Source: Wohlfahrtiimonas chitiniclastica DSM 18708
Lineage (GTDB): Bacteria; Pseudomonadota; Gammaproteobacteria; Cardiobacteriales; Wohlfahrtiimonadaceae
Assembly (NCBI RefSeq): GCF_000375345.1
Contig: NZ_AQXD01000003.1
Coordinates: 124,001 to 188,000 of the forward strand
DNA length: 64,000 nt
Direction of reading: 5' to 3'
Below the pieces are notes generated by a model that worked only from the letters and a program-made list of their open reading frames with translations, searched no databases and was not told the origin of the DNA. Below are positions 29,526 through 35,840 of this stretch, in pieces (position 1 is the stretch's first letter; every line of letters starts with the position of its first letter). A program made the position numbers and the translations under genes.

Positions 29526-29633
29526 TGGTTTTGCAACTTCGCATTTTTTCCAGATGACAATAAAATTAAAGGGCTTACAATAATGAGCGCTGAAATTTTA
29601 TCCACACAAATCATCCATCATAAAGGGGAAGAC

Positions 29634-31040
29634 ATGCGTACAGAAGTCGATCTATTAGGCAGCAAAGAAATATCAGATGAGTGCTACTACGGCGTGCATA
29701 CACAACGGGCGATGGAGAACTTTAACATCTCCAATCAAACCATCAGCGATATGCCAGAAATCGTGCGTGGCTTAGCGCTCACGAAAAAAGCGGTGGCGCT
29801 CGCGAACAAAACATTGCGCGTCATTGAGCCACACAAAGCCGATGCGATTGTCACTGCATGTGATTTAATCTTAAATGAAGGGCGCTGTTTAGATCAGTTC
29901 CCCATTGATGTGTTTCAAGGGGGCGCGGGCACCTCATCAAACATGAATGCGAACGAAGTGATCGCCAATCTTGCCCTTGAAGTGTTAGGGGAAGCGAAAG
30001 GTCGCTATGACATCATCAATCCAAACAATGATGTCAACCTCTCCCAATCCACCAATGATGCTTATCCTTCTGCCCTGCGCCTTGGCTTTTATGAAAAAAT
30101 GCAGAGCTTACTCACTGCCCTTGCTTATTTAAGAGATGGCTTAGCGATTAAAGCCGCAGAGCATCAAGATGTATTAAAAATGGGTCGCACACAATTGCAA
30201 GATGCTGTACCAATGAGCGTTGGCCAAGAGTTCAATGCCTTTGCGGCGATGCTCAACGCAGAAATCAAAGCCCTATCCATCGCCGCCGATGATTTATTGA
30301 CCTTTAACCTAGGGGCAACCGCCATTGGCTCAGGCATCAATACACCTGCAAATTACCCAGAAACAGTGGTCAAACACTTATCTGAATTGGTGGGTAAACC
30401 TTGCCGCAGCGCAGAAGATCTATTTTCCGCCACATACGATTGCTCAGACTTGGTCACCTTGCATGCAGGACTCAAGCGCTGCGCCATCCGTTTAGGCAAA
30501 ATCTGTAACGATTTACGCTTACTGACGTCAGGCCCACGCACGGCACTCAAAGAGATCAACCTTCCTGAATTGCAAGCTGGCAGCTCCATCATGCCTGCAA
30601 AAGTCAATCCTGTCTTGCCAGAAGTGATCAATCAGTTATGCTTTAAAGTGATGGGCAATGATGTCACCGTTTCCCTCGCCGCTGATGCTGCACAATTACA
30701 GCTCAATGTGATGGAACCTGTGATCGTGCAAGCCATGTATGAATCCATGAGTTTATTGCACAATGGCTGCCACAACTTGCGTGATCGTTGCATTGATGGC
30801 ATCACCGTCAATACCGATCGCTGCCGTGATTTTGTGCTCAACTCCATCGGCATCATCACCTATTTGAATCCTGTCATTGGTCATGCTGAAGGTGACATTG
30901 TGGGTAAAATCTGTGCCCAGACCGGTAAAAGCATCAAAGAAGTGGTGCTTGAACGCGGTTTAATGACTGAAGCTGAACTCGATGAATTGTTATCTGAAGA
31001 GAATTTATTACATCCGCATCACGTTGCGCCTAAATTCTAA
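29634..31040 (+). CDS. aspA: Aspartate ammonia-lyase
   Basis: A 468-residue fumarase/aspartase superfamily enzyme that converts aspartate to fumarate and ammonia. The signature [12 protein letters not shown] is present, along with [26 protein letters not shown] and [12 protein letters not shown], which agree with E. coli AspA rather than fumarase. ATG 29634 follows GGGGAA and gives the usual N-terminus [15 protein letters not shown] 29583 upstream would add 17 unmatched residues. It feeds aspartate into the TCA cycle and fumarate respiration. Confidence 0.95.
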
Positions 31041-33995: not shown

Positions 33996-35234
33996 ATGAG
34001 CAATCAAATCGATGCCGTTTTGGTGGTTTATCAAAATCGCCAACATGCGCAAACCATCGCCCAAATGGTCAGATCCCTCAATTTTTACTGTGAATTGATG
34101 CCAGCCATCAAAGCGGATCAAGCCGCCATTGATCAAGCCCCAGCCATCATCAATTTAAGTGATGCCAGCCATTTACCGAACGAAAAAACATTCGCAGTGA
34201 CAGAAGATGCTTTAAACAGCATCCACTTAAAAACAGAGATCGCGGACTTTTTAAAAACCACATGTGCATTGACGCCTAATTGGACAGTTGAAGCCTTTGC
34301 AGAACTTGAAACTGCACGTTTAAAAGAGATCGTAGGTACAGATGAAGTGATCCTTGCCCTTTCTGGCGGCGTGGATTCTTCTGTGGTGGCAGCACTCTTA
34401 CACAAAGCGATTGGCAAACAATTGACCTGTATTTTTGTGGACACAGGTTTAATGCGCTTAAACGAAGGCGATCAAGTGATGCAAGTGTTCCATGAGAACA
34501 TGGGCGTGAATGTGATTCGTGTGAATGCAGAAGATCGTTATTTAGCGGCATTAGCCGGTGAAAATGATCCTGAGCGTAAGCGCAAAATCATCGGTGAACT
34601 TTTCATCAAAATCTTTGAAGAAGAGGCACAAAAACTCTCTCACGCCAAATGGCTCGCACAAGGCACCATCTATCCTGACATTTTAGAATCGGGCGATCAT
34701 CACGGCGCAAGCAATGTGATCAAATCACATCACAATGTGGGCGGCTTGCCAGAAGACATGAAATTTGAGCTCATCGAACCGCTTAAATATCTCTTTAAAA
34801 ATGAAGTGCGTGAACTCGGTGTCTCTTTAGGTTTGCCGGCTGAAATGCTCTATCGTCATCCATTCCCAGGTCCTGGCCTTGGGGTGCGTATTTTGGGCGA
34901 AATCAAAAAAGAGTATGCAGACATTTTACGTGTGGCCGATGACATCTTTGTTCAAGGTTTACGCGCACATGGCTTGTATGACAAAACCTCCCAAGCATTT
35001 GCGGTGTTTTTACCTGTGAAATCTGTGGGCATTAAAGATCACAAACGCACGTATGAATACACCATTGCCCTACGCGCCATTGAAACGATTGACTTCATGA
35101 CGGCACGCGCAGCTCGCTTACCGTATGAATTCATTGAAGAGATTTCTACAAAAATCATGTTAGAGATCCCAAAAGTGACACGCGTTGTCTACGATGTGTC
35201 TAATAAACCACCAGCAACAATTGAGTGGGAATAA
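33996..35234 (+). CDS. guaA: GMP synthase with a shortened, glutaminase-dead N-terminal domain
   Basis: A 412-residue protein against about 525 in ordinary GuaA. The C-terminal two thirds are a normal ATP-pyrophosphatase and dimerisation unit: PP-loop SGGVDSS at residues 123-129, [34 protein letters not shown] and the terminal KPPATIEWE. The N-terminal 120 residues align with both ends of the class I glutamine amidotransferase domain (VLVVYQNRQ, then [13 protein letters not shown], and later IADFL-TTCAL) but lack the middle. The nucleophile-elbow CYG and the HPE motif are absent. The frame is open throughout, with no stop. It should make GMP from XMP with free ammonia, or need a separate glutaminase. 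ATG 33996 is chosen as it begins homologous sequence; the ribosome-binding site is weak. Confidence 0.85.
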
Positions 35235-35297: not shown

Positions 35298-35840
35298 ATG
35301 CGTATCGTATTATTAGGCGCGCCAGGATCAGGTAAAGGTACTCAAGCCACCAATTTAGTCGAAAAATATGGCATCACTCATCTTTCCACTGGAGATATGT
35401 TGCGTGCAGAAGTCAGTGCAGGCACCGCGCTTGGCGTTGAAGCGAAAAAAATCATGGATGCAGGTCAATTGGTATCCGATGACATCGTATTAGGCATGAT
35501 CAAAAACAACATCGAATCCATCGAAGGTGGTTTCTTGTTAGATGGTTTTCCACGCAACTTAAATCAAGCAGAAGCGTTAGACGAATTGCTTGCACAAATC
35601 GGTGAGCCGATTGATAAAGTGATCTTCTTTGATGTGCCATTTGACATCATCAAAGAGCGTTTGATGTCTCGTGGTCGTTCAGATGATACTGAAGAAACCA
35701 TCGAAAAACGCCGCAAAGTCTATGAGTCAGAAACTGCACCACTCATCAATTACTACACCAAACAAGGTAAACTTGTAACGGTTGAAGGCGTTGGCGAAGT
35801 GAACGAAATCAGTCAGCGCATTTTTAAAGCGTTGAGCTAA
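35298..35840 (+). CDS. adk: Adenylate kinase, short-LID form
   Basis: A 180-residue kinase that interconverts ATP, ADP and AMP. P-loop GAPGSGKGTQ (residues 7-16), the AMP-site segments STGDMLRAEV and GFLLDGFPRNLNQAEAL, and RGRSDDTEETIEKR are visible. The ~30-residue LID insertion of E. coli Adk (214 residues) is replaced by a short loop between RLMSRG and RSDDT, as in other short bacterial enzymes. GAGGAGA-like TTAGGAGA precedes the ATG. It lies 63 bp after guaA; both act in purine nucleotide metabolism. Confidence 0.95.
   Translation: MRIVLLGAPGSGKGTQATNLVEKYGITHLSTGDMLRAEVSAGTALGVEAKKIMDAGQLVSDDIVLGMIKNNIESIEGGFLLDGFPRNLNQAEALDELLAQIGEPIDKVIFFDVPFDIIKERLMSRGRSDDTEETIEKRRKVYESETAPLINYYTKQGKLVTVEGVGEVNEISQRIFKALS

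Follow-up and report, generated by a model that had tools for sequence, protein, structure and literature searches.

Bacterial GMP synthetases (GuaA) are described as two-domain enzymes (PMC9312489, PMC10526850). The ATPPase of GMP synthetases does not need the GATase for its own activity and accepts ammonia from outside (PMC10526850). When the catalytic Cys was absent in a double mutant of the Plasmodium enzyme, glutamine-dependent activity was gone and the Km for NH4Cl was reduced 6.7-fold (PMC9312489), so that loss of the glutaminase alone can leave an ammonia-driven enzyme. In the archaeal two-subunit system, the synthetase chain (subunit B; 6JP9, 2DPL) is without a catalytic glutaminase of its own. 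Human CPS1 is ammonia-dependent, with Ser replacing the Cys of its class I GATase (PMC4655335), ammonia can serve carAB (PMC3017870, whose reference list includes a title on in vivo synthesis from NH3 by the large subunit of E. coli), and the NH3-dependent NAD synthetases belong to a PP-loop synthetase family in which some forms use glutamine and others ammonia (PMC3376133). No natural glutaminase-less bacterial GuaA or CarA was recognised in the literature, which we searched by titles and the beginnings of abstracts.

The gene studied here is a short guaA of Wohlfahrtiimonas chitiniclastica DSM 18708. It lies in a stretch of 64,000 nucleotides of contig NZ_AQXD01000003.1, which was analysed as a whole and is called the window, together with the following features:

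33996-35234, + strand: short guaA, GMP synthase without the glutaminase catalytic core, 412 aa (frame, NCBIfam and Pfam matches, alignment)
33996-34271, + strand: class I GATase remnant, about residues 1-92, with the Cys and the His-Glu segment gone (alignment, AlphaFold2, dN/dS)
34362-34382, + strand: ATP-pyrophosphatase PP-loop SGGVDSS, residues 123-129 (identical in all 29 aligned rows)
34722-34733, + strand: K-S-H-H, residues 243-246 (K243, H245 and H246 invariant in the 29-row alignment)
34959-35228, + strand: GMP_synt_C dimerisation domain, residues 322-411 (PF00958, E 5e-38)
35298-35840, + strand: downstream neighbour of short guaA, which we take to be adk
29583-31040, + strand: aspA, aspartate ammonia-lyase (family search)

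An earlier note on this DNA had claimed a frame of 412 codons without stop or frameshift, a normal ATP-pyrophosphatase half with the PP-loop at residue 123, and the loss of the Cys nucleophile and the His-Glu pair, and all of this was confirmed. The frame 33996-35234 consists of 412 codons plus the stop and has no internal stops; an alternative TTG start 15 bases upstream would give five extra residues. The synthetase half is complete: model positions 180-512 of NCBIfam PRK00074.1 (GuaA, 512 positions) correspond to residues 82-412, the protein scores over the cut-offs of both TIGR00884 and PRK00074.1, and the invariant positions of an alignment of short GuaA with 28 relatives (29 rows) are conserved throughout this half. 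Assigned by position, K243, H245 and H246 would be the catalytic Lys and His-His named for Plasmodium GMP synthetase (PMC10526850). In the same alignment, short GuaA lacks the segment that carries GICYGMQ and QFHPE. The PP-loop of full-length GuaA lies about 100-115 residues later than that of short GuaA. Compared with two-domain GuaA (E. coli 1GPM; A. baumannii 7SBC, which covers residues 82-412 with E 4.5e-146 in phmmer), short GuaA has the same synthetase and dimerisation domains, i.e. an ATP-pyrophosphatase domain with PP-loop and a GMP_synt_C domain, but it lacks an N-terminal class I GATase with the Cys-His-Glu triad, having lost about 100-115 GATase residues, among them the nucleophile and the His-Glu motif. 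Class I GATase families were not detected in the protein at E 0.001 (Pfam, NCBIfam). Scans for promoters and terminators gave nothing usable.

What remains of the glutaminase is a stub, of which residues 1 to about 54 align with the start of the GATase domain and residues about 77-92 with its last helix (29-row alignment), in agreement with the remnants of both ends proposed in the earlier note. Its likeness is weak when taken alone (phmmer, residues 6-36 against 7SBC, -0.1 bits), and it is by alignment and architecture that it is identified as a GATase remnant. In the AlphaFold2 model of short GuaA (mean pLDDT 83) the stub forms an ordered alpha/beta cap (pLDDT block means 87-95 over residues 11-90), and this predicted structure fits the structural cap that had been suggested. 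The model matched E. coli 1GPM (Z 33.8, 385 residues, 3.5 A), the ATPPase subunit of M. jannaschii (6JP9; Z 33.1, 295 residues, 2.0 A) and P. horikoshii 2DPL (Z 31.9). The next structural matches, LarE and NAD synthetases, were far lower; the NAD synthetases (Z about 15-18) also catalyse a different reaction. Since PP-loop folds are versatile, as LarE and the NAD synthetases show, and duplicates often diverge, the short protein might be thought to have kept its fold for a regulatory role or for some other adenylating reaction. We give this idea almost no probability, because GuaA residues are kept throughout, the GuaA cut-offs are exceeded, and a genus described below would be left without any GMP synthase. 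With archaeal subunit B the short GuaA shares a close fold and the lack of its own catalytic glutaminase, whereas it keeps a GATase stub of about 90 residues and is nested in bacterial GuaA in a tree without archaeal rows.

The family was sampled with 18 genomes (G000-G017), comprising Wohlfahrtiimonas (g1), Ignatzschineria (g4), a sister genus (g3) and G006 (g2). Short guaA frames of 418-435 codons without the Cys or the QFHPE motif are present in 16 of the 18 genomes, namely six g1, both g3 (G007, G009) and eight of the nine g4, and two of these 16 are single-contig assemblies; the identical architecture in 16 of 18 genomes rules out an assembly gap or a frameshift as the origin of the short gene. 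The nearest named protein is that of W. sp. G9077 (97% identical). G006 has a GuaA of the native type with an intact Cys, its frame being cut by a contig end, and G017 (Ignatzschineria genus, 93% complete) showed only a complete second copy of GuaA. In a phylogenetic tree of 75 synthetase domains, including four Bacillota rows, the 15 short GuaA branched together as a single clade (100/99) within the gammaproteobacterial GuaA. The short enzyme thus falls in the gammaproteobacterial GuaA lineage, and it is best explained as the family's own inherited GuaA which has lost the middle of its glutaminase domain. In a sample of 140 gammaproteobacterial genomes surveyed for the length of guaA, TIGR00884 matched in 131 (over the cut-off in 125), and no further proven truncation was found. 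Three other short frames over the cut-off turned up, two of which begin at a contig end (G298, G218) and one of which ends at a contig end by coordinate arithmetic (G197).

The synthetase part of short GuaA is under strong purifying selection, and the stub is looser. By the Nei-Gojobori method, with dS saturated in many pairs, dN/dS of the synthetase part was 0.019-0.052 in those 13 of the 15 Wohlfahrtiimonas pairs in which it could be computed (0.022 between the window's gene and W. sp. G9077), and that of the stub was 0.12-0.17 in the 8 of these 15 pairs that gave a value. The C-terminal part of the Ignatzschineria short GuaA gave 0.021-0.050, and its N-terminal part, with some pre-start codons included, up to 0.49.

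The genome of the window contains a second GuaA on another contig (G000:C5), which has 509 residues and an intact GICYGMQ. Second copies are complete in four Wohlfahrtiimonas genomes (G000-G003); that of G005 is truncated by a contig end, and G004 shows a 105-residue fragment near a contig end. All nine Ignatzschineria genomes have one (complete in eight). A second GuaA, complete or partly seen, thus accompanies the short enzyme in 14 of its 16 genomes, and the short enzyme is not the sole route to GMP in these. Thirteen second copies formed one group (100/99) in the tree, adjoining Alkalihalobacillus (99/93) and the other Bacillota, which points to a probable horizontal acquisition common to Wohlfahrtiimonas and Ignatzschineria. 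Shortly downstream of the complete guaA of G000:C5, at L001:3338-3933, an array of 28-base repeats with 60-base spacing is found; it is a CRISPR array, presumably of type I-F as judged by its repeat.

A second full guaA had been named in advance as the finding that would turn the short gene into a relic. The copy is there, but other findings speak against the consequence. A native short copy that has been decaying without a role since the complete GuaA arrived would fit the presence of such a copy, the faster evolving stub, and G017, which showed the complete copy only; yet the synthetase part has a dN/dS of 0.02-0.05 and no stops, the short gene persists in 16 of 18 genomes, and it is the sole copy in g3. 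We accordingly attach very little probability to decay. The C-terminal part of the second GuaA has a similar dN/dS (0.011-0.039, 10 of 10 pairs), and we read these values as suggesting that both the short and the complete copy are kept as working enzymes.

The two g3 genomes (G007 and G009, which are near-identical) are without a second GuaA, and the short enzyme is the only one over the TIGR00884 cut-off. A search for IMP dehydrogenase in 11 genomes gave a match in every one, in 10 of them above the cut-off; the enzyme is whole in G007 and appears as two partial matches on different contigs in G009. With short GuaA as the only GuaA, g3 has to convert IMP to GMP, via XMP, by means of this enzyme or else salvage GMP. 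These genomes, with short GuaA alone next to IMP dehydrogenase, lend support to the ammonia dependence postulated in the earlier note. They also speak against its other suggestion, a class I glutaminase in trans: a PF00117 search of G007 and G009 found one domain each, in a frame of 556 codons which is CTP synthase by motif in G007 and has equal length and the Cys motif in G009, and no class I GATase beyond this PyrG. As the sole PF00117 domain is that of CTP synthase, a class I partner in trans seems unlikely. The number of PF00117 domains in these two genomes is lower than in the other genomes compared.

One might still imagine ammonia being tunnelled to short GuaA from a separate glutaminase, in the archaeal manner, or from the GATase of the second GuaA. 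The resemblance to archaeal subunit B (6JP9, 2DPL) would suit such a two-subunit arrangement, as would the four class I GATase domains in the window's genome (the second GuaA, a CarA frame, a frame that looks to us like TrpG/PabA, and PyrG). However, G007 and G009 carry short GuaA with PF00117 in PyrG alone, and a GATase gene does not adjoin short guaA, its upstream neighbours in the window being aspA, an amidohydrolase and an AbgT transporter; we leave this arrangement a slim chance. Short GuaA lacks the glutaminase of the two-domain enzymes and, in g3, also the class I GATase partner of the archaeal two-subunit system, but it should work as an ammonia-dependent synthetase. Glutamine shortage was rejected as a cause of the loss, since the glutamine synthetase gene glnA was found in 13 of 13 genomes tested. 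CTP synthase, of which the Cys alone was read, has kept this residue in all 8 frames that carry the PyrG motif, and so have two more frames that are likely CTP synthases.

A similar decay was met in Pseudomonadaceae. A scan of named genomes yielded three proteins with a degraded GATase (L052, L053, L055); in the 75-domain tree they branch apart from the short enzymes as a group of their own (fork 100/96). From Pseudomonadaceae, the family indicated by the lineage of L053, 138 genomes were drawn evenly from a larger group; four of them (G057, G058, G065, G105) have internal deletions in guaA, form one group (99/97) and, as read by eye, also have Gly at the Cys position. Among 30 full-length Pseudomonadaceae guaA in which the Cys was read, two have Gly (G059, G168) and 28 have Cys, the latter including ten close relatives. 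In each of the six genomes guaA is immediately preceded by a match to guaB. Other GuaA were absent from G057, G058 and G059 (TIGR00884), and from G065, G105 and G168 among the matches listed by E-value. These six sole-copy genomes belong to one Thiopseudomonas-like clade, and at least three are from metagenomes. The tree suggests that this loss of the glutaminase was independent of that in short GuaA. In the same sample, guaA of G176 (L240) is interrupted in its GATase part, by a frameshift or a sequencing error, so that two frames result, and the GuaA match of G110 is weak.

The glutaminase subunit of carbamoyl phosphate synthetase is affected as well. Of the 18 genomes of the GuaA-loss lineages in which CarA was readable, 13 have a CarA whose glutaminase is dead or deleted (12 of 17 if G017, where short GuaA was not detected, is set aside); this is the case in none of 11 relatives with intact native GuaA (ten Pseudomonadaceae and G006); these counts are not phylogenetically independent. 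The GATase domain is deleted in four genomes of the genus Ignatzschineria (G008, G010, G011, G012; loci L285, from G010, and L315-L318), leaving frames of 183-225 codons with the start of carB about 10 bases past the carA stop. A full-length CarA with Gly at the Cys position occurs in four other Ignatzschineria (G013, G015, G016, G017), in two Wohlfahrtiimonas (G001, G005) and in three Pseudomonadaceae (G058, G065, G105; L288, L289, L290). CarB was over the cut-off in those genomes with dead CarA that were tested (G010, G015, G058, G065, G105). CarA was unreadable in G057 (cut by a contig end); it was not found in G014, G007 and G009, where CarB was also below the cut-off, nor in G168, where carB begins near a contig end so that the assembly may miss carA. 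Five GuaA-loss genomes have an intact CarA (G000, G002, G003, G004, G059), which speaks against a strict link between both losses. Because the other Wohlfahrtiimonas and G059 keep CarA, at least three losses of the CarA glutaminase are counted (the Wohlfahrtiimonas pair, Ignatzschineria and the Pseudomonadaceae clade), assuming that CarA was not regained. G059, with a Cys-to-Gly change in GuaA and an intact CarA, suggests that GuaA decays before CarA.

Together, the losses in GuaA and CarA suggest that glutamine was given up for free ammonia more than once, in a manner similar to vertebrate CPS1. Human CPS1 has likewise lost the Cys of a class I GATase and uses external ammonia (PMC4655335). 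In GuaA the catalytic Cys is replaced or missing and the synthetase conserved, and the CarA with a Cys-to-Gly change are the direct parallel, the Cys being replaced or missing there too; the differences are that GuaA is another enzyme, that Gly and not Ser takes the place of the Cys, that some CarA and GuaA have lost whole segments, and that the present cases are bacterial. The Pseudomonadaceae clade with a Cys-to-Gly change and internal deletions in its only GuaA, and the loss of the CarA glutaminase alongside, are new here.

The position of aspA about 3 kb from short guaA, which had been noted earlier with the remark that it might or might not matter, was verified. The pairing recurs in the nearest relative (L034), but it is absent from the eight other loci whose upstream sequence reaches 7.8 kb or more (L035, L036, L038, L039, L041-L044); three loci are too short upstream for judging it fully (L037, about 1.2 kb; L015, about 1.5 kb; L040, about 6 kb). 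A role of aspA as a dedicated ammonia source was rejected for this lack of conservation, and its proximity is probably incidental. The putative adk lies downstream in all 12 loci of the family that were compared, immediately after short guaA in Wohlfahrtiimonas and g3 and 1-4 kb off in Ignatzschineria.

Short guaA very probably encodes a working GMP synthase that uses XMP, ATP and free ammonia, with the stub serving as a cap, and this reading is well supported because anatomy, selection, the sole-copy genomes and convergence all point to it. XMP would be adenylated in the intact ATP-pyrophosphatase domain, and cytosolic ammonia would then attack the adenylated intermediate to yield GMP. As Wohlfahrtiimonas and Ignatzschineria also carry the complete, Bacillota-like GuaA, we infer a division of labour there, with the short enzyme probably used at high ammonia and the complete one at low ammonia; g3 (two genomes) relies on the short enzyme alone. 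High ambient ammonia may have been the cause of the glutaminase loss.

The sources of these bacteria are carrion insects, fly larvae and manure, and some of the metagenomic ones are probably from digesters; we take these habitats to be ammonia-rich, although an ammonia concentration for these organisms was not found in the literature. Ignatzschineria larvae and W. chitiniclastica occur in the guts of carrion beetles (PMC5436106), one clinical Ignatzschineria was urease-positive, a trait that was called not compatible with Wohlfahrtiimonas (PMC5330230), and Thiopseudomonas is listed with genera of manure, compost and soil (PMC8759634).

For annotation, these genes are a warning, as the family models give the short protein the name 'glutamine-hydrolyzing GMP synthase'. 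Glutamine channelling is usually regarded as the point of amidotransferases, and natural GuaA and CarA without glutaminase offer a way to study under which conditions an amidotransferase can do without channelling, how it turns ammonia-specific, and what the stub must still do. On balance, we favour the view that gammaproteobacterial lineages have independently rewired nucleotide and arginine biosynthesis to ammonia, with GuaA stripped first, then CarA, and CTP synthase spared; Cys mutation, partial deletion and clean deletion might then be coexisting stages of this process, which would be a repeated bacterial counterpart of CPS1.
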